Shown in pieces: positions 764 to 10,799 of a stretch of DNA of 64,000 nt. Source of the DNA: Dokdonella koreensis DS-123 (GTDB lineage: Bacteria > Pseudomonadota > Gammaproteobacteria > Xanthomonadales > Rhodanobacteraceae). The notes beneath the pieces are model-generated. The model did no database searches. It was not told the origin of the DNA and saw only the letters and a program-made list of their open reading frames with translations. The stretch's first letter is position 1. Each line of letters starts with the position of its first letter. Both the position numbers and the translations under genes were made by a program. The stretch lies in the NCBI RefSeq assembly GCF_001632775.1, contig NZ_CP015249.1:2584686-2648685 (forward strand). Reading direction: 5' to 3'.

Positions 764-2131
764 TCAACGACCGGCGGCGACCGTTTCGAAACCGTCGACG
801 AAGACCGTGTCGCTTTCCGTGCACGTCCCGTCGGCGTCGTAGCGCCGCACGACGGCGTCGTTGAGGTTCTCGCTCGGGCCGAGCACGGTCCAGCCATCGG
901 GACTGGCCGTCACCGCGACGGTGCCGAACATCGCCAGGTCCTCGCTGCGCCGGCAGGGCCTGCCGCCGGCATCGAACTCGACGACGCGGCTGGTGACACG
1001 CCCCACGCCGGCAAGGGCGAATCCGCCCACCAGCACGCGACCGTTCGCGGCGACGCCCAGCGTGGACGGCGAGAAGCCGGCCGGTGGATCGACGTTCCAC
1101 ACGACCGCGCCGCTGGCGCCGTCCAGGCGAAGCAGGTGGAAGTTCTTTTCGTTCCCGAAGTCGGCCATGACCACCAGCACGTCGCCATCGGCCGCCGGCG
1201 CGAGCGCACTGATCGCATTGGAGCCGGGCGAGGCGTCCGGAAGCACCCGCGTCCAGAGGCGGCGCCCGTCGGCGGCGAGCTTCCACACCTGCGATTGCGT
1301 CTCCCCGAACAGCGACTCGGGCGCCGCCGCGGCGGCGATCGTGCCGTCGGCATAGGACACCAGGCGCGCCGGGCCTTGCGCAGCGCCCGATTCGCCGAAC
1401 TCGACGTCGCTGAAGACCACCCGGCCCGCCGCGTCGAACCGCACGGTGACCTGCCCTCTGCGCCCGTCCCCGGCGACTCCCTCGCTGGTGACGGCCGCTC
1501 CGCCATCGGGCAAGGCGACGATCTCGCCGAGCCCGCTGATGGCGTCGCTGGCGGACACGACGGAACGCCATTCCGGCAGCGCGTTGCCGGCCGCGTCGTA
1601 GCGAAAGACGATGACCTCGCGACCCCCGCCGTATGCACGCACCAGCAGGTCCCCGTTCGCGCCGACGACCGCGTGGCGCCGGCCCGAATGGACCGCGCCG
1701 ATCGTTCCCGGGCCCGTCTGGCGCTCCCAGAGCAGATCGCCATTGGCGGCATCGTAGACACGGACGGTGACGGCGAGCGCGCTTCCCGTGCCGACCGTCT
1801 GGCCGACCAGCGCGACACGCCCGCCGGGCAACAGCTCGATGCCGACCTCGCCGTCCACCGCGAACTCGCGCGCCCAGGCGAAACCGCCGCCGCTTCCGAA
1901 ATGCAGCAAGGCGGCATGCGAACGATTGTGGTGGATCACGTCGGCGATGCCGAACACCCCGCCGTCACCGGCAACGCGGATGCCGACCGGCGTGACCCTG
2001 CGGACCGGTTCGTCGTAGGTCCAGATGCCGATCCACTCCGGCAGCCATCGGGCGACCGCCGGCGACGCCGACAGGGCGAGCGTGAGCAGTGCCGACGCTC
2101 TGAAGAGCACTGACGTTCCGGCGACGGGCAT
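764..2131 (-). CDS. Secreted beta-propeller-like protein with C-terminal DGFE tail
   Basis: 455 residues. I chose the ATG at 2131 because AAGAGG lies 6 bases upstream and the product then begins with a Sec signal peptide (about residues 1-27, ending ASPAVA). The longer frame upstream has no signal. The body contains repeated PQQ/beta-propeller-like blades such as VYDAANGDLLWERQTG, KLAADGRRLWTRVLP and LRLDGASGAVVWNVDPP, suggesting a periplasmic or exported propeller. No enzyme active site was recognised. The last residues, TVFVDGFETVAAGR, match the tails of two other secreted proteins in this window (ending at 6348 and 7953). Function is unknown. Confidence 0.8.
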   Translation of the reverse strand: MPVAGTSVLFRASALLTLALSASPAVARWLPEWIGIWTYDEPVRRVTPVGIRVAGDGGVFGIADVIHHNRSHAALLHFGSGGGFAWAREFAVDGEVGIELLPGGRVALVGQTVGTGSALAVTVRVYDAANGDLLWERQTGPGTIGAVHSGRRHAVVGANGDLLVRAYGGGREVIVFRYDAAGNALPEWRSVVSASDAISGLGEIVALPDGGAAVTSEGVAGDGRRGQVTVRFDAAGRVVFSDVEFGESGAAQGPARLVSYADGTIAAAAAPESLFGETQSQVWKLAADGRRLWTRVLPDASPGSNAISALAPAADGDVLVVMADFGNEKNFHLLRLDGASGAVVWNVDPPAGFSPSTLGVAANGRVLVGGFALAGVGRVTSRVVEFDAGGRPCRRSEDLAMFGTVAVTASPDGWTVLGPSENLNDAVVRRYDADGTCTESDTVFVDGFETVAAGR

Positions 2132-2419
2132 GCAGGCCTCTTGTTCGCGTTGAACCTCGAGCGGGAACCCCACCTCGCGCGGACGCCCTCGGCCTGTCCC
2201 GGCGGCGGTCAGGCCGCCATCGGGCAGCCCACGCCTGTGGATCGAAACCGCGGCCGGCATCCCGGTGACGCGCGAGCCTTGCTTCGCCGGCCGGCGCTTC
2301 CGGACGCGCCGCTCGATGATACCCGACAGGTGACGAACGCGAAGAGGCGCGTCTGCGCGGGCGGACGGGCCGGCCCGCGCCGGCCACGCAGCACCGCCGG
2401 CCACGGCGCCGATACCCGG

Positions 2420-4885
2420 CTATCGAGGCGCCGGCGCCGCCTGCCCCTCGTCATCGTGGTCGTCCTTCTCCAAGCGCACCCGCACCTGCTGGTTCGGGAC
2501 GCCGAGCCCGACGCCGGCTTCGCGGAAACGGCGGATCACGCCCAGCAGCAGCTCGCTGCGAATCCCGTAGGCCTCGCGCGGACCGCTCACGTAGGCGAAG
2601 CAGTTGAACATCACCCGGCCGTTGTCGATGGCGTCGACGAAGACCGACGGTGCGGGCGTCTCGCGCACGCCGGGCTGGGCCAGGAGGGTCTCGCGCAGGA
2701 GCCCGCGTGCCGCGTCCAGATCCTCGTCGAGCGACACCGAGAACTTGAGCTGTACCCGCCCCAGCGGGTTGGCCTTGGTCATGTTCTGCACGGTCTTGGT
2801 GATCAGCTCGGAATTGGGGACGATCAGCGTGGACCGGTCGCCGATCTGGATCTCGGTCGAACGGACGTTGATGCGGCGGATGTCGCCTTCCTGGTCACCG
2901 AGCCTGACCCAGTCGCCGATCCGCACGGGCCGCTCGACCAGCAGGATCAGGCCCGACACGAAGTTCTGGGTGATCGCCTGCAGGCCGAAACCGATGCCGA
3001 CCGAGAGGGCGCTGATCAGGATGGCGAGCTTCTCCATCCCGATGCCGAGCGCCGCCAGCGCCCAGACGACCGCGACCGCGAGCCCGAGGTAACCGACGAT
3101 CGTCACCACCGAACTGCGCGCGTCGGGCTCCAGGCTGGTGGTGGGCAGGTAGCTGTTCGCCAGCCAATGGGCGACGCCGCGCAGCAGCGCCCAGACGACG
3201 AAGAACACCAGCACCGCGCGGGCGAACGCCTGCACCGAAAGCGTGGCGCCGCCGATCTGGACGCCTTCGCCGAACATCTTGAACAGGTCGAAGAACGAGG
3301 TGAAGCCGGTTCCGAACGGCACGAACAGAGCGCCGAACGCGAACACGATCAGGACCACGCGCAGCACCGCCGACAACACCACGCCCAACTGGTCGAGCGT
3401 GCGGTCCGGGACACCGAACCGCGCACGCGCGGACTGGCCCCAGCGGGCCTTGCCGGACAGCACGCCCCGACACAGATCGTCCACCAGTGCCATCAGCAGG
3501 TAGAGCGTGGCCGTCACCGCCGCGCCCCAGACGATCCATTGCGAGATCCGTATCGCGAACGCGAGATAGCCGGCCAGCGCCGCGATGAACATCCCGACGA
3601 CGCCGACCCAGCCGAACACCAGGCCGATCCCGACCAGCACGCTGCGCAGCGACTCGGACGCGGCGCCGGCGGCACTTCGCTGCGCGGCGCGCGCCCGGCC
3701 CACGATCATGAGTCCGAGCGCGAGCGCGCCGACGTTCGCCACCGCCAGCAGCGCCTCCACCGCGGTGACCGTGGCCACGCTCAATCCCGCGCCGGTGGTG
3801 ACCCGCATCACCAGGGCCGTGGTCACCAGGACGGCGGCGAACAACCACGGCAGCGGCCGGACGATCGTGGCCGCGGCCGTATCCAGCCGCAACAGGCGCC
3901 ACGCCGGCACCCGCACCAGCAGCAGCGCGTAACCGGCGGCCACCACGTAGGCCGCCGCACCCAGCGTGTTGCGCACGGCATCCAGCAGCGGCACGCCGGC
4001 ATCGGTCACCAGGCCGGAGCGCTTGAGCGCCGCCGCCAGCACGACCAAGGCGATGACCGGCAGGGCCGTTTCGGTCACCAGCAGCCAGGCCGCGAACACC
4101 GAACGCTGCAACCGCGCCGCGCCGGTGGTGTTGCGGGCGGCATGGCGCATGCCGCGCTCGTGCAGCCAGCGCCGCACCGGCCACAGCACCAGCAGCGCGA
4201 TCAGCAGCGCCGAGCCCAGCACGGCCACCACGCGCGCGGTGTAGCCACCGGCCGGCCGCGCGCCGATGCTGCCGATGAACGCGAGCAGCCGTTCCGCGTC
4301 GGAACCGGCCTGCGCGCCCGCCGCCGTCCAGAACGCGGCCGACAGCGGCGATGCCGATCGCTCGGCCAGCTCCTGGCTGACAGCCTGCACCTGCGCGGCC
4401 GCGAGCGACTCACGCGACTGGTTGGCGTCCAAGGCCAGCAGCCGGGCCCGCTTCACGGCCGAATCCACCTTCGCCTGGTCGGCCGCCAGGCGCTGGCGCT
4501 GCTGCCTGACGTCGGCCGCCTCGGGCATGCCGTCCACGACCGGCCCCAGTTCGTCCAGGCGCTGCTGCAGCACGGCCTGCTCCGCGGCGAGGCCATCGGC
4601 GATCGTGCGCGCGGCGGCCGCCACGGCCGCGGCGCGCCGCTGCAGATCCAGCCGCTGGCCGCCATCGGCGACCGTCGCTGCCTGGCCGCGGATGGCCTCC
4701 AGCTCGTCCACCTGCCGCGCCAGTTCGGCCTGCGCCTCGACCAGCTTCGGCTGGCCGTCCTGGGCCTGGCCGGGAACGGCCACCGTCATCAGCCACAGCA
4801 GCATCCACACACCGGCGGTGCGCAGCAGCGTGCCGGGCAGCGAGCGCCGCGGCGGCACGGGGGAATGAAACGCAATCAGAGGCAC
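2420..4885 (-). CDS. MscS-family mechanosensitive channel with DUF3772-like periplasmic region
   Basis: About 821 residues from a GTG at 4885, chosen because GGAG lies 6 bases upstream and a signal-peptide-like segment follows (ending AVPGQAQ). An alternative GTG at 4951 has no clear ribosome site. After the signal comes an alpha-helical, coiled-coil periplasmic region (roughly residues 45-180), then about ten membrane segments. Next is the MscS pore helix motif (GIGFGLQAITQNFVSGLILL) and the cytoplasmic beta domain (ERPVRIGDWVRLGDQEGDI). The layout fits the large MscS/MscK-like channels that release solutes during hypo-osmotic shock. It lies alone between an outer-membrane protein gene and a secreted protein gene. 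Confidence 0.9.
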   Translation of the reverse strand: MPLIAFHSPVPPRRSLPGTLLRTAGVWMLLWLMTVAVPGQAQDGQPKLVEAQAELARQVDELEAIRGQAATVADGGQRLDLQRRAAAVAAAARTIADGLAAEQAVLQQRLDELGPVVDGMPEAADVRQQRQRLAADQAKVDSAVKRARLLALDANQSRESLAAAQVQAVSQELAERSASPLSAAFWTAAGAQAGSDAERLLAFIGSIGARPAGGYTARVVAVLGSALLIALLVLWPVRRWLHERGMRHAARNTTGAARLQRSVFAAWLLVTETALPVIALVVLAAALKRSGLVTDAGVPLLDAVRNTLGAAAYVVAAGYALLLVRVPAWRLLRLDTAAATIVRPLPWLFAAVLVTTALVMRVTTGAGLSVATVTAVEALLAVANVGALALGLMIVGRARAAQRSAAGAASESLRSVLVGIGLVFGWVGVVGMFIAALAGYLAFAIRISQWIVWGAAVTATLYLLMALVDDLCRGVLSGKARWGQSARARFGVPDRTLDQLGVVLSAVLRVVLIVFAFGALFVPFGTGFTSFFDLFKMFGEGVQIGGATLSVQAFARAVLVFFVVWALLRGVAHWLANSYLPTTSLEPDARSSVVTIVGYLGLAVAVVWALAALGIGMEKLAILISALSVGIGFGLQAITQNFVSGLILLVERPVRIGDWVRLGDQEGDIRRINVRSTEIQIGDRSTLIVPNSELITKTVQNMTKANPLGRVQLKFSVSLDEDLDAARGLLRETLLAQPGVRETPAPSVFVDAIDNGRVMFNCFAYVSGPREAYGIRSELLLGVIRRFREAGVGLGVPNQQVRVRLEKDDHDDEGQAAPAPR

Positions 4886-5023
4886 GGGCGGCTCCGCGAG
4901 CGGGCCGGCAGCCCGCCCGCCGGGAATGGTCGATACGCACGAACCCGGCACGCATGCGCGCCGGCACCGGAACGGGCGGGAGCGGCGCCGCCGTTCTCCG
5001 GGCGGCCCGCCTGCCGCGCCCGC

Positions 5024-5830
5024 CTAGAATGCCAGCGTGATGCCCGCCATCGGTCCCTTGAATTCCAGGTCGATGCCGCCGCGCGCATCCCGGCCGGACT
5101 CCTCGTAGTTGATCTTGAACCAGTCGTAGCCGGCGAACACACCGAAGGCATCGGTGATGCGGTACTCGACGATCGCATTGGCACGCTTGATCTCGCCTTC
5201 GTAGTCGAAATTGCCCCACCCCGCATCGAGGTACTGGGCCTGGACGCTGAGCAGCCACTTGTCGCTCGGCTTGCCGGTCAGCCGCAGGCCCACCACCGGG
5301 GCCACGCCCTTCTCGCCGGCGGAGGCGCGGTACTGGTTCTCGCCGGCTTCGGCACGCAGCCGGCCGTCGACCTTGGCCCATTCGGCGCCGATCTGCAGGC
5401 CGGCCGAGAACCGCGGACTGTCGACGACCGAGAAGTCGTAGATCAGGCTGGCGAGCTGGAACTCCGCGTTGTACCGGGCGAAGCTGCCGGCCGGCAGCGT
5501 GACGTCGCCGTACGTAAGATCGCGCCCGAGCGTGGCGTTGTTGTCCTTCTTGAATCGAAAGTAGTCGAAGATCAGGCGATTGCGGTCACTGAAGCGGAAC
5601 ACGCCGTCGATGCGCGGCGAGATCTCCTTGCCGCCGAGATCGAACGCCTCGCGAAACGAGGCGTCGACGCCCGCCGCACTGCCGTCGCCATAGAGTTCTC
5701 CACTGCCATCCGCATGCATCGCGCCGAGCCGCAGCGTGAACCGGTCGTCGCTCGGATCGGCGCAGGCCGTGGTGGCGGCGAACAGGCTCAGGAACGCCAC
5801 CGCACTGCTGTAGGGGTATCGGGTCGTCAT
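5024..5830 (-). CDS. Outer-membrane beta-barrel protein
   Basis: 268 residues from the ATG at 5830, which has GAGGAT 6-7 bases upstream and gives a Sec signal peptide ending TTACA. The mature part is made of alternating amphipathic strands rich in aromatic residues (NRLIFDYFRFKK, QLASLIYDFSVV). It ends in Phe (GITLAF), the classic terminal residue recognised by the BAM insertion machinery. Size and strand count suggest an 8- to 12-stranded barrel of the OmpW/OmpA-like kind. No ligand can be assigned. It is transcribed alone; a possible promoter lies at 5938-5967. Confidence 0.85.
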   Translation of the reverse strand: MTTRYPYSSAVAFLSLFAATTACADPSDDRFTLRLGAMHADGSGELYGDGSAAGVDASFREAFDLGGKEISPRIDGVFRFSDRNRLIFDYFRFKKDNNATLGRDLTYGDVTLPAGSFARYNAEFQLASLIYDFSVVDSPRFSAGLQIGAEWAKVDGRLRAEAGENQYRASAGEKGVAPVVGLRLTGKPSDKWLLSVQAQYLDAGWGNFDYEGEIKRANAIVEYRITDAFGVFAGYDWFKINYEESGRDARGGIDLEFKGPMAGITLAF

Positions 5831-5937
5831 TGCTTGATCCTCGTTTGTGGGGCGGCGCAACGCGTACACGTCCGAGTCGGCTGGACCGGCCCGAGGTATT
5901 CCACAACCCGCCGCCCGGTAGAAGGCCACGCCCCGCT

Positions 5938-5967
5938 ACTCTAGTCAGAGGACGATCCGCACAACAA
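5938..5967 (-). promoter_or_regulatory. Possible sigma-70-like promoter of the outer-membrane protein gene
   Basis: On the minus strand a TTGTTG box (5962-5967) is followed after 18 bases by TAGAGT (5938-5943), about 107 bases before the ATG. Matches to consensus are partial. In the rest of the 5831-6347 gap (517 bases) I see no gene, repeat or RNA. Confidence 0.3.
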
Positions 5968-6347
5968 CACGCCGGCGATCATCCGGCATGCCCCGGTTCA
6001 GCGAAACCGCTTGGGCACCCTCATGTCGGGAAGCCGCTGGACCCGCCTCGGTGGCGGTCACGCGGCGCAGGTACCGATCCGGACGGCCGCCCGAACGGTC
6101 GCATGGCCGGCATGCAACGGCGGATCGAACGCGCGATCGAGCGCCCGCTCGTGGACAGGCGGTGCCGTGGATCTCCGGCGGCGCGCGCCGGCGCGTCCCG
6201 ACGATCCGCACGCGATCACCCGTCCCCTGCGTCCTGCCGGCCGGATCCGGCGGCAGCGCCCGTTCCAGACGCCATCGGGAACGCGGTCGCCGAGGCGCGC
6301 CGGACCGCCTTGCGTCCCGTGCGCGCCGCAGACGCGATGCGAGAGGA

Positions 6348-7919
6348 CTAGTCCGATTCGAAACCGTCGCAGAAGATCGTCTCCTCGTCGGCCGGCTGGC
6401 GCTCGATCGCACCGATGTCGGTGGCGGCGCCGGAGGTGCGCGCGTAGGCACCACCACGTTGATCCGAAACGAGCCCGTCGGGATTGACGCCGGCATCGAT
6501 CGCGCAGGAGCCGTCACCGAGCCGGTGCGTCATCGTCGCGCCACCGTTTGTGGCCAGCGGCAACAGCAACGGATCGCAGCGCAGCGTATCGGCCGGGAAC
6601 ACCGCGGTGTTCGACGCGGCGCCGATCAGATTGTGGCTACCGGTGATCCGGACCGATCCGATCTCGCCGGTGGGATCGAACAAGCCGACCTCGGCGTCGG
6701 CGGCAGCTTCGTTGCCGAACACCAGGCTGCTGTCGAGCCTGACGACGACCGAAGGGTCGGCGGCGAACACGAGCAAACCCCCACCGATCGACTGGCCGGC
6801 CCTGTTGCCGAACACCGTGGTGTTGCGGATGCTCGAGTCCAACAGCACGACAAGGCCGCCCCCCGCGGATTGCTCGCCCAGGGTTGCATTGCCCGAGATC
6901 GTGCTGTTCGAGACGTCCGCGGCCACTGTCATGACACCGCCCGCATAGGAGGCATAGCCCAGGGTCGAGTTGCCCGACAGCGTGCTTCCGCTGGCGCGCA
7001 TGACGTATGCATAGCCGCCGCCGCCCCAGGCGGCGCCGCCCTCGGTCGAATTGCCCGACACCGTCGAATCGGTCAGCGTGATCGTCGCGACGGGAACGTG
7101 GAAGCCGCCACCGAACGAATTGTCGCCGCTGGTCCAGTTGTCGACGATCGCGCTCTGGATCGCTACGGCATCGACCAGGCGCGTCGCGATGCCGCCGCCG
7201 GGCGATGCGGTCCCGAGCGTCGCGTTGCCGGCTACGATGCTGCGCGTCAGCGACAGGGGCTGGTACGAATAGATGCCGCCCCCGGGCGAGGAGGCCCCGG
7301 TGGTTGCGTTCCCGGAGACGACGCTGTCGACCAGTTCCAATCCTGCATGGGCGAGAACACCGGCACCGTAGCCTTGCAGCTTGTTCGTCAGGTTCGACGA
7401 GATTTCGCTGCGATCCACGGTCAGATCGGCTCTGGCCAGGACTCCGGCTCCGCCGCGGTCCATGTCCTTCTCGTCCAGACGCCCGCCGCTGATCTTCATC
7501 CAGCGCAGGACCAACGGTGCCGTCTCGAGGGTCTCGATGATCCGGAAGGTCGTATCGTCCGCCTCTCGTCGCACGGTGACCAGGCGATCCTGCCCGTCGA
7601 GGTCGAGCGCGCTGGTCACGAGCAGCGAACCGCCGTCCGCCGCGGTCAGCGTGATCGAGGAGACCCCCGGCGCGAACCGGATCGTGTCGGCGCCGCTGCC
7701 GGCCGGACAGCCGGAGATGGCGGCGTCCGTATTCGCCGCGGCCACGGCGTCGCGCAGCGTGCACCGGTCGGCGACCGAGCCGTCGGCGTCGCTGTCGACG
7801 AGAATGGTCGCCGCTTGCGCCGCCGGCAGACCGAGCAGCACCAGCAGGGCGGCGCTCAGCGGGCGCAAGCGCCCGGCCGGCCGTACCAAGGAAGGATGCG
7901 ATAAGCGATGAAAGAGCAT
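6348..7919 (-). CDS. Secreted parallel beta-helix protein (choice-of-anchor-Q type) with DGFES tail
   Basis: 523 residues, with GGAG 6-7 bases before the ATG and a Sec signal peptide ending PAAQA. The mature start, ATILVDSDADGS followed by CTLRDAVAAAN, is the usual N-cap of 'CSLREAI' right-handed beta-helix proteins. The body has many degenerate repeats with SxVSGNxTxG-like turns and paired GGG(I/L) motifs, as in pectate-lyase-fold and polymorphic outer-membrane-like proteins. The segment NLIGAASN ... DPLLLPLATNGGATMTHRLGDGSCAIDAG is the choice-of-anchor-Q region. It ends TIFCDGFESD, the tail shared with two other secreted proteins here. It starts 33 bases after the upstream choice-of-anchor-J gene, so they are probably co-transcribed. 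Confidence 0.9.
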   Translation of the reverse strand: MLFHRLSHPSLVRPAGRLRPLSAALLVLLGLPAAQAATILVDSDADGSVADRCTLRDAVAAANTDAAISGCPAGSGADTIRFAPGVSSITLTAADGGSLLVTSALDLDGQDRLVTVRREADDTTFRIIETLETAPLVLRWMKISGGRLDEKDMDRGGAGVLARADLTVDRSEISSNLTNKLQGYGAGVLAHAGLELVDSVVSGNATTGASSPGGGIYSYQPLSLTRSIVAGNATLGTASPGGGIATRLVDAVAIQSAIVDNWTSGDNSFGGGFHVPVATITLTDSTVSGNSTEGGAAWGGGGYAYVMRASGSTLSGNSTLGYASYAGGVMTVAADVSNSTISGNATLGEQSAGGGLVVLLDSSIRNTTVFGNRAGQSIGGGLLVFAADPSVVVRLDSSLVFGNEAAADAEVGLFDPTGEIGSVRITGSHNLIGAASNTAVFPADTLRCDPLLLPLATNGGATMTHRLGDGSCAIDAGVNPDGLVSDQRGGAYARTSGAATDIGAIERQPADEETIFCDGFESD

Positions 7920-7952
7920 GGATTTCTCCGCAGTGCGGCCGCCAGGCGGCCG

Positions 7953-10799
7953 CTAGTGATTCGACTCGAAGCCGTCGGCGAACAGGGAATCGGGGCCGAG
8001 GAACAGACGCACCGGCAGCGTCAGCCGGCGCCGCAGGGGGTCGTTGCTGTACAGGCAGAGGTTCGCGCTGTGCCAACCGTCCGCCAAGGCCGCGCCGTCG
8101 AAATCGATGTTCAGTACCTGAGGGGCGGCGCCGGCGGCGATGGAGCCGCCGGGTGGCGACAGCGACAGCCACGGCACTTCTTCCGGCGCGGTGCAGGCGT
8201 TCGTCCGTCGCGCAATCGCCAGCGACTGCCACATCGCACCCGACTTGATTCCGAAGACTTCGGAGATGAAGGTGGTCGCTCCACTGGCGGCATCGATCGA
8301 CCAGAAAGCCCCGCTGCCGTTCACCGACAAGGGACGCGACGACAGCAGATGGAACGACCCGCTCGAAGCGTCGTAATCGAGAGCCAGTGCACCGCGTGCG
8401 TTGGGATCGAGCGAACCGAGGGCGATCGCCTCGGTGGTGTGCTTGTCGATCATCAGCAGTGCACCCAGCGTCTCATCCACGCCGTAGAGCTGCCCCTGCA
8501 CGTCGAACGCGATGTCCGCGACCTGCGGCGCATTGGCGATCGCACCGACCGGATGCACCGCCGCCGTGGCCAGGTCGAGCGTCCATAGCGCACTGCCCGC
8601 CCCCTCGGTGGCGGTGCTCAGGTACATCGTGCCGGTGGTCGGATCCTGGCGCAGGCCGGTGATCCGGTTCAGCGGCAGCGGGACGGTCCCGACGATTTCG
8701 TAGTGCGGTGCAGGAAACGGTCGGTCGAGATCGACCCAGCGCATCAGTTCATGCGTCGCGTCGTCGATCGCGTAGAGCGTCCTGAAGTCGTCGTCGGCGA
8801 ACGCGATCGCGCGGATCTGGCGTCCGTCGAGATTGGCGATGCCGTTCGCTCCGCCCGGCGGCGCATAGCTGGTACGCGCCGGATCGAAGCGGATCAGCGA
8901 GCCATAGCCGATTCCCGACCAGTCGTTGTACAGGTCGAAGGTGTGGAACGCCGCCGGCGTGCCGGCCGCAGCGGCCGGCAGCACGTCCCGCACCGCACGC
9001 GCTGACGCGCTCGGCGGGAACAGGTCGAAGCTGGCCGGTGCGCTCGCGCCCGACCAGTCGAGCCGCCCTTCTCCGGCATTGCCGATGCCGACCTGGACGC
9101 GGCCGCTGCCGTGCGAGGGCACGATGGCGCTGATGGTCTCGGCGCCGCTGACCAGCCCGGGCGCCAACCCGACGATCTGCAGTGCCCGCGAGTCGACGTG
9201 GATCGAGGGCGTGGTCGGCGTCCAGACGATCCGGCGCACCGACCTCAGACTCGGCGTCTGGTACGAGTAGCCGATCCCATGCAGATCCTTCTGCAGGCCG
9301 ATGCTCGCGTTGCCGCCGTCGTCGTCCTGCGCCAGTGCGCCGAAGCGCGTGTTGCGGTACTGGTACTCGATCCGGTTCGAGCCTTCGTGGAGGATCAGCT
9401 CGGCATCCAGCCCACGGCTCGGATCGACCTGCCCCGGCGGGATCGCCGCCGGCACCTTCTGATGCCACTGGATGACCAGCCGCCGGTTCGGCGCCGTGCC
9501 GACCAGCTTGCGGTGGATCGCTCCGTAGCGCGTCCAGAACTTCGCCGCGTACACCGCCGCGAACGGGCTGTTCTCGATGTAGTCCGAGGCGCCGCTCGGA
9601 AGAGCGCCGACGACGGCATTGTCCGGGCATCTTCCATTCAGGACCGCGGCGAACACGCCGTCGTTGGACACGCAGTAGCGGTCCACCGACGTCCGGTAGA
9701 AACGGAAATCGAACGGCATCGTCGCGATCGCGCCCGGCGTCACGACCTCGCCGTCGGTCGCGTCGAGGTAGTCGGCCGGCTGGCTGTCGTCGAGGTGGTA
9801 GTCCTGCGCCTGGGTCTGCGAGGTCGCCGTGGCCGAGAGCGTCTCGGAGCGGCCGACCGTGATCACGCGGTTGTAGCGGTAGCTCGCGCCGGGCGCCAGG
9901 TCGTGCACGTCGGCACTGAGGATCGTGCCGACGCGGTCGTCGCGCAGCCAGTGATGGCGCAAGGTCTCGGGCGACGTATTGGTGACCTCGTAGCAGAGGT
10001 TGATGCGGTCGCCGAGCGTGGCCTCGATGCGGTCGGAGCCATCGCAGGCGTCAGGCGTCGACGGATCGTAGGCCGTGGCTGTCAGCGCCAGGTTAAGCCC
10101 CGCGCTGCCGTTCGGATCGGTGCCGATCGTGACCCGATCCAGGCCCAGCCGGCCGGAAGCCCGATGCGCCGGTGTCTGTCGCACGTAGTAGCGGAACGCG
10201 ATGCGCCCGACACCGCTGGTCGGCACCGCCCCGCCCGGACCGATCGTGTACCGCGTCCATTCGCTCGGAACGCCGTCGTCTTCCTCGTCGGGATTGATGT
10301 CCAGCAGCAGGTCGCCGAATTCGCCGACGTCTTCGGCGGCCGTGCCGACGTCGGTACAGGCGCCGCTGCGGCAGAGTCGGACCTGTAGCCGATCGACTGC
10401 CGGGCCAAGTTCGGGAAGGCTCAGGCTGCGCGCCTGGAAGGTCAGCGAGAACGATCCGCCGAAGGCGACCGGCGGACTGAGCAGCCAGACGCTGACGACG
10501 CCGCCCTCCGGAACCTGCTGGGGATTGAGCGGGACGAGGTAGGCTCGCGGCGGCGCGTCATAGCCGTCATACAACCACGGCGATTGCTGATGCCAGCCGT
10601 GGCCCTGCGCTCCGTGGCGCAGCGGCTGCTCGCTGTTGTCCTGGCGCATCCAGCCGTTGGCATAGATGCCGACACCCGGTGTTGCGAACTGCTCGAAGCC
10701 CTCGTCCACGGCCAGCGGCAGCGATCCGGCGCCGGCGGCTCCCGCAGCGGCGACCAACCCCATCAGGCAGGCCGCCGGCCCGCCCCAGTATCTCGACAT
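7953..10799 (-). CDS. Secreted choice-of-anchor-J protein with propeller-like region and DGFES tail
   Basis: 948 residues from the ATG at 10799, which is preceded by GAGGA and gives a signal peptide ending GAAGA. The N-terminal part (about 25-230), beginning DEGFEQFATPG, is a choice-of-anchor-J/cleaved-adhesin-like beta-sandwich. A CARDB/DUF11-like segment with a Cys pair follows, then a region with the motif FDFRFY and a propeller-like stretch (RTLYAIDDATHELMRW, GQLYGVDETLGALLMID). It closes with an Ig-like domain (WLSLSPPGGSIAAG ... LCLYSNDP). The last residues are DSLFADGFESNH. It is first gene of a two-gene operon with the beta-helix gene. Adhesion or surface scaffolding is plausible but unproven. 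Confidence 0.88.
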   Translation of the reverse strand: MSRYWGGPAACLMGLVAAAGAAGAGSLPLAVDEGFEQFATPGVGIYANGWMRQDNSEQPLRHGAQGHGWHQQSPWLYDGYDAPPRAYLVPLNPQQVPEGGVVSVWLLSPPVAFGGSFSLTFQARSLSLPELGPAVDRLQVRLCRSGACTDVGTAAEDVGEFGDLLLDINPDEEDDGVPSEWTRYTIGPGGAVPTSGVGRIAFRYYVRQTPAHRASGRLGLDRVTIGTDPNGSAGLNLALTATAYDPSTPDACDGSDRIEATLGDRINLCYEVTNTSPETLRHHWLRDDRVGTILSADVHDLAPGASYRYNRVITVGRSETLSATATSQTQAQDYHLDDSQPADYLDATDGEVVTPGAIATMPFDFRFYRTSVDRYCVSNDGVFAAVLNGRCPDNAVVGALPSGASDYIENSPFAAVYAAKFWTRYGAIHRKLVGTAPNRRLVIQWHQKVPAAIPPGQVDPSRGLDAELILHEGSNRIEYQYRNTRFGALAQDDDGGNASIGLQKDLHGIGYSYQTPSLRSVRRIVWTPTTPSIHVDSRALQIVGLAPGLVSGAETISAIVPSHGSGRVQVGIGNAGEGRLDWSGASAPASFDLFPPSASARAVRDVLPAAAAGTPAAFHTFDLYNDWSGIGYGSLIRFDPARTSYAPPGGANGIANLDGRQIRAIAFADDDFRTLYAIDDATHELMRWVDLDRPFPAPHYEIVGTVPLPLNRITGLRQDPTTGTMYLSTATEGAGSALWTLDLATAAVHPVGAIANAPQVADIAFDVQGQLYGVDETLGALLMIDKHTTEAIALGSLDPNARGALALDYDASSGSFHLLSSRPLSVNGSGAFWSIDAASGATTFISEVFGIKSGAMWQSLAIARRTNACTAPEEVPWLSLSPPGGSIAAGAAPQVLNIDFDGAALADGWHSANLCLYSNDPLRRRLTLPVRLFLGPDSLFADGFESNH

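Follow-up and report, generated by a model that had tools for sequence, protein, structure and literature searches.

A short peptide tag with the consensus [DE]-x-[ILV]-F-x-D-G-F-E was found chiefly at the C-termini of many otherwise unrelated Sec-exported proteins of the Lysobacterales, and its abundance in a genome was associated with the presence of a second type II secretion system (T2SS), here called type B. No named family, model or paper was found for the tag, which is apparently part of an undescribed, large protein-targeting tag system. The tag itself is strongly supported, and its connection with the type B machine is a correlation only.

In the window, the whole 64-kb stretch of DNA that was analysed, three minus-strand open reading frames (ORFs) were confirmed to carry the tails described in the sequence-only reading, namely TVFVDGFETVAAGR (stop at 764), TIFCDGFESD (stop at 6348) and SLFADGFESNH (stop at 7953), each followed directly by the stop codon (Table 1). 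Matches to a PQQ-type propeller, a beta-helix with choice-of-anchor Q and choice-of-anchor J agreed with the claim that the three proteins are otherwise unrelated, and a Sec signal peptide was present on each, as had also been stated. In the window, the DNA pattern for F-x-D-G-F-E (TTYNNNGAYGGNTTYGAR) had exactly 3 matches where shuffling predicted 0.01, and each of them was one of the tails. None of the Pfam and NCBIfam models searched with the window proteins matched the tag, in line with the earlier remark that its author knew of no named domain for it, and a literature search for the motif, or for a tag in Dokdonella, yielded no paper naming it. An AlphaFold model of window protein 2 gave a fine beta-helix, with the last 150 residues unresolved and uninformative for the tag.

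Table 1. Positions of the tagged window proteins, their tags, proteins tagged behind the signal peptide, and the type B secretin of the window's genome.
Feature	Position	Strand	Remarks
Protein 1: PQQ/BamB-like propeller, tag at end	764..2131	(-)	455 aa from ATG 2131; Sec signal MPVAGTSVLFRASALLTLALSASPAVA
Tag DTVFVDGFE, protein 1	785..811	(-)	6 residues before stop
Protein 2: right-handed beta-helix, CSLREA-like N-terminus and choice-of-anchor Q, tag at end	6348..7919	(-)	523 aa; Sec signal
Tag ETIFCDGFE, protein 2	6357..6383	(-)	2 residues before stop
Protein 3: choice-of-anchor J and DUF4394/DUF6923-like region, tag at end	7953..10799	(-)	948 aa from ATG 10799; Sec signal
Tag DSLFADGFE, protein 3	7965..7991	(-)	3 residues before stop
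Tag behind signal peptide	L087:9919-11904		C-terminus untagged
Tag behind signal peptide	L100:9924-14423		C-terminus untagged
Tag behind signal peptide	L139:854-3163		C-terminus untagged
Tag behind signal peptide	L179:1970-7759		C-terminus untagged
Tag behind signal peptide	L186:2208-4625		C-terminus untagged
Tag behind signal peptide	L258:165-1586		C-terminus untagged
Type B secretin, window's genome	G000:C1:698859-700676		

Across the window's genome (a single contig of 4.45 Mb), 34 matches to F-x-D-G-F-E were counted against 0 for a reversed-pattern control. Twenty-eight of the 34 stood 16 or fewer residues from a stop codon, and the other six comprised one just behind a signal peptide (L007/L258) and five within proteins. 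A looser stop-ending pattern was matched at 15 places in this genome, and by context reading about 14 further genes carried close C-terminal variants, such as FADGFD, FEDDFE, FTNGFD, FASGFD and FDSGFE directly before the stop. The count per genome within the order that had been proposed in the sequence-only reading was made on 300 evenly sampled Lysobacterales genomes and ran from 0 to 77, with control columns near zero. For context reading, 190 distinct sites were collected from about 45 Lysobacterales genomes; 166 of these were C-terminal, i.e. 30 or fewer residues from the stop, on proteins with Sec signals, and 49 stopped exactly at the final FE of the motif. The number of residues after the motif ranged from 0 to about 20, most commonly 0 to 4, so the earlier description of a tail at or within 6 residues of the stop holds for the window trio and is too narrow elsewhere. 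Because this length varies, what is conserved is only the motif, in which D or E is preferred three residues before the first F (in 65%); with its variants the motif widens to [DE]-x-[ILV]-F-x-[DN]-[G/S/D]-F-[ED].

Six strict cases had the tag right behind the signal peptide (e.g. LSAQPIFADGFEQ and VFAESIFRDGFEP), and internal copies of the motif sat between domains. Degenerate tags behind the signal peptide (GDLVFRQTFE and SRTIFESGFDE) were also seen in DUF1800-like proteins at L190:2198-3941 (-) and L096:12137-13937 (-), both of whose genes adjoin DUF1501-like genes; another DUF1501-like gene (L187:934-2329) had the C-terminal variant tag FQNGFESPA. Tandem copies of the motif or a variant were observed at G025:C58:4510-4566, G010:C70:17873-17929, L049 and L052, the matches standing 39 bases apart in two of them.

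Among Pseudomonadota outside the Lysobacterales, a single stop-coupled match was found in 4 of about 290 genomes. Other Gammaproteobacteria showed no enrichment of the tag, and most of their inspected matches were one conserved stretch of ProA (NASTRFADGFEYGLGAE). A GTDB contig scan returned Dokdonella, Tahibacter, Rudaea, Chiayiivirga, Pseudofulvimonas and Marinicella together with Lysobacterales or unclassified MAGs, and its named matches outside the order were rejected as spurious short ORFs. By these searches the tag is confined to the Lysobacterales.

A recognisable Sec signal was seen at the start of nearly all full-length tagged ORFs, by a heuristic and by eye; the heuristic, which was our own, scored 85 of 105 tagged proteins and 443 of 751 controls and discriminated too little, so the statement draws on the signals visible by eye. 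Fifty-five of the full-length tagged ORFs matched more than 60 Pfam/NCBIfam families, many of them unrelated, including FG-GAP, subtilase, beta-helix, Kelch, NHL, GSDH, M28 and nuclease-like families, to which the tagged set of the window's genome added M14 and esterases. The subtilase, M14, M28, esterase and nuclease-like families correspond to Sec/Tat-exported, folded exoproteins, the kind of protein that qualifies as a T2SS substrate. Some tagged proteins matched the rhombotarget A, ScyF, LPXTG-type, M36 and ExeM/NucH models as well as choice-of-anchor Q and J; in several of these models the members known so far have a PEP-CTERM, GlyGly-CTERM, MYXO-CTERM or LPXTG anchor, whose place is occupied here by the tag.

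The presence and absence of the tag on one enzyme was followed in aligned M14 carboxypeptidase homologues, which were about 43-57% identical. In tag-rich genera these finished in AVFLDVLAPNDTIFRDGFEPPAQE, the tag standing a few residues past the last conserved strand, and the tagged ends included DTLFADDFETQ, DTIFRDGFEPPAQE, DNIFYDGFQ and DTIFEDGFDSPPAR. The homologue in genus g3 (G179, tag-poor and lacking a type B secretin in the surveys, and G865, outside those surveys) stopped at AVYFTVQ, exactly ahead of the tag position, and homologues with added domains bore the tag at the new C-terminus. An AlphaFold model of M14 (16 sequences, pTM 0.75) gave a confident Ig-like domain to residue 565 and placed the tag just beyond it, at residues 570-578, with a pLDDT of about 40. 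This pattern of presence and absence, together with the low pLDDT, indicates that the tag is a movable appendix outside the fold and is probably disordered. Four further M14 relatives (L292, L293, L297 and L299) had another terminal domain instead of the tag, possibly a proprotein-convertase P-domain, as if this domain and the tag were alternatives.

Tag-rich genomes, defined as those with 6 or more matches, carried two full T2SS secretins (GspD), and tag-poor genomes of the same families mostly carried one. The universal secretin was of the Xps type, and the second, type B, belonged to a gspC-gspD-gspE cluster that frequently also included gspF and occasionally ftsE/ftsX; identity to the type B GspD query from G005 was at least 42% for type B and about 24-32% for the Xps type. 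All nine type B clusters inspected (L304, L306, L308, L310, L312, L314, L316, L318 and L322) contained gspC, gspD and gspE, with gspF in 6 of the 9, and in G016 the models TIGR01713, TIGR02517, TIGR02533 and TIGR02120 scored above their cut-offs, marking homologues of GspC, GspD, GspE and GspF, respectively. No genes for the pseudopilins GspG-K or for GspL/M were seen beside the gspC-F clusters within the fetched cluster stretches, so the type B pseudopilin genes would lie elsewhere or be shared with Xps. A T2SSC domain and a PDZ-like region were found in all nine GspC_B proteins examined, the PDZ regions of most GspC proteins being below the Pfam cut-off, and in a small test T2SSC/PDZ was not found among the Xps-cluster ORFs of one tag-poor genome.

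The same 300 Lysobacterales genomes were searched for type B GspD, with Xcs-like partial GspD matches in family f2 (mainly genus g34) scored negative. Of the 87 tag-rich genomes 78 were positive for type B GspD, and of the 213 tag-poor ones 40; the corresponding figures were 11/11 versus 3/66 within family f1 and 2/2 versus 1/76 within f2. On shuffling of genera within families, the observed agreement was reached in 1 of 20,000 trials. The association was not significant within f8, f9 or f10 taken singly, and that within families rests mainly on two of them; in f1, and likewise in f2, the tag-rich genera may form one clade, in which case few independent events are represented. In a smaller panel, type B GspD was found in 23/24 tag-rich versus 4/22 tag-poor genomes, exosortase in 13/24 versus 6/22, and any GspD above cut-off in all 24 tag-rich genomes. 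The check for co-occurrence with secretion or protease genes that had been suggested from the sequence alone brought out a second T2SS, not named at that time, that tracks the tag with real exceptions.

Two of these exceptions show the correlation between tag and type B T2SS to be strong and not strict. In genus g31 (family f10; 30 genomes in the survey), about 90% of the genomes kept the type B T2SS and strict or variant tags were essentially missing, the PDZ region of GspC being intact in G058; the genus has either lost the tag or uses the system for other cargo. Conversely, G097 (98% complete) had genuine tags (e.g. L343, L349 and L352), and searches for type B GspD and GspE in it found neither; G063 may be a further tagged genome of this kind. 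The presence of GspE_B in G118 shows that some other mismatches are gaps in MAGs.

To the reading that the tag is a modular, flexible targeting tag for the type B T2SS on Sec-exported Lysobacterales proteins we give close to an even chance. The tag stands at a terminus of the mature protein, in nearly all cases the C-terminal one; after Sec export the cargo would fold in the periplasm, and the disordered tag would then be bound by the type B (gspC-D-E(-F)) T2SS, most plausibly by the PDZ domain of GspC or by another periplasmic part of the system, so that the folded cargo would be selected to leave by the secretin GspD_B and reach the cell surface or medium. We infer both the reading of the tag by the type B T2SS and the role of the GspC PDZ domain as reader. 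That the export address of a dedicated T2SS is one short linear peptide, common to dozens of unrelated cargos and read by the GspC PDZ domain or the secretin, is put forward more tentatively.

T2SS substrates are described as lacking a common sequence, and how their cargo is recognised is unresolved, with signals in flexible regions favoured (PMC10128026). Secretion of an Ig-domain protease depends on the PDZ domain of a GspC, and the Ig-fold of this protease carries and transfers secretion information (PMC12369372); for Xanthomonas, the equivalent periplasmic region of XpsC is the assumed binding site of cargo (PMC11981180). The proposed mechanism fits this literature. It resembles the pairs of the PelI Fn3 loop with the OutC PDZ domain and of the VesB Ig-fold with the EpsC PDZ domain, in which flexible or Ig-domain-associated information is read by a GspC PDZ domain; those recognition elements, however, are particular to single substrates, whereas the tag is common to many proteins. 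The signal of type IX secretion is likewise C-terminal and targets folded proteins, exported by Sec, for transfer over the outer membrane; it belongs to Bacteroidota and comprises a whole folded domain, about 80 residues long, whereas the tag has 7-9 residues and belongs to the Lysobacterales. Against reading by the type B T2SS stand g31, which keeps the system without tags, and the tagged G097; moreover, a handful of gene families were profiled, and others may fit as well or better. PDZ domains normally prefer the extreme C-terminus, and the variable number of residues after the motif also speaks against such a reader.

If the tag were a linear T2SS address, it would be a transferable signal readable from sequence, without counterpart in the T2SS literature searched. 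With a tag that related genera carry or lack on one and the same enzyme, the way in which the T2SS chooses its cargo could be tested by deletion and grafting. A pattern search on the tag would catalogue the whole surface and secreted proteome, and the tag could serve as a compact export tag in engineered secretion. Even if the T2SS is not the reader, the tag amounts to a large protein-targeting system of a single bacterial order that is apparently undescribed.

The main rival, which we consider unlikely but take seriously, is a surface docking tag comparable to a dockerin or an encapsulation peptide: the protein would be exported by any route, such as Xps, and then be retained on the cell by non-covalent binding to an outer-membrane or surface receptor. 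Docking peptides can likewise stand at either terminus and sometimes between domains, the choice-of-anchor architectures suggest surface display, tandem tag copies occur, and G097 is tagged in spite of lacking a type B T2SS. No receptor candidate came forward, however: clustering of about 1,200 ORFs in the neighbourhoods of tags showed no conserved partner or receptor gene, and docking by itself leaves the type B T2SS association unexplained. All that this clustering gave were apparent multicopy families, named from sequence by eye: a ser/thr kinase with an ECF sigma factor and DUF1501/DUF1800. Genes for ECF-type sigma factors and serine/threonine kinase-like proteins were repeatedly noted near tagged genes of several genomes (L097, L151, L158, L160 and L176); they may be regulators or simply abundant families.

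A cleaved sorting signal, at which a membrane or periplasmic protease or transpeptidase would cut, coupling the protein to a lipid or a component of the cell wall in the style of PEP-CTERM, GlyGly-CTERM and MYXO-CTERM, is improbable, in spite of the C-terminal site, the many substrates per genome and the choice-of-anchor domains. The tagged tails finish at or shortly after DGFE and contain no PEP-type motif, Gly-rich motif, transmembrane helix or basic end, and the earlier exclusion of PEP-CTERM, GlyGly-CTERM and LPXTG signals is upheld. Like GlyGly-CTERM with rhombosortase (TIGR03902; Vibrio T2SS substrates), the tag is C-terminal on many unrelated Sec-exported proteins and is associated with a T2SS with a PDZ-containing GspC, but it lacks the glycine-rich motif, helix and basic end and also occurs N-terminally. 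It shares with PEP-CTERM and exosortase the dozens of tagged proteins per genome, the same kinds of protein and the place at the very end, without the PEP motif or the helix. MYXO-CTERM with myxosortase and LPXTG with sortase also use a short C-terminal signature on choice-of-anchor-type proteins; in both, the motif has to be followed by a hydrophobic helix and basic residues, whereas the proteins here often end with the motif itself. As candidate enzymes for the tag, exosortase (PF09721) and rhombosortase were rejected by their distribution: the former was absent from 11/24 tag-rich panel genomes, and the latter was above cut-off in only three of 47 genomes (G013, G046 and G097) and in 0/24 of the tag-rich panel. 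Cutting behind the signal peptide would, furthermore, release rather than anchor a protein (L087, L100, L139, L179, L186 and L258), so the tag is probably not a cleaved sortase signal, whereas a bound peptide can work at that place. Of the suggestion of a new sorting, export or anchoring tag, the order-specific tag on secreted proteins is supported, and a usual anchoring or processing signal is not.

It is very improbable that the motif is a structural element, i.e. a leftover first jelly-roll strand or a domain cap spread by domain shuffling with no targeting role. The motif does resemble the starts of jelly-rolls (e.g. VLWADGMENGAAGWT; choice-of-anchor J/MAM-like domains begin F-x-D-x-x-E..GW), and its internal copies lie between domains; but it follows more than 60 unrelated protein families, is predicted to be disordered in the M14 model, and is missing from homologues that end cleanly; it is also lineage-bound and hugely over-represented at stops, features that a cap would not need. 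That the motif is due to chance, or is a repeat in the DNA translated in a single frame where genes end, for which nothing speaks beyond the first three examples, was rejected with near certainty on the 34 matches against 0 in the control and on free synonymous codon use. The outcomes named beforehand as refuting a signal, namely few matches, random positions or cytoplasmic proteins, did not occur. Every fixed position of the motif used all of its synonymous codons and the amino acids were kept in AT-rich and GC-rich genomes alike, from which it follows that selection acts on the protein and not on the DNA.
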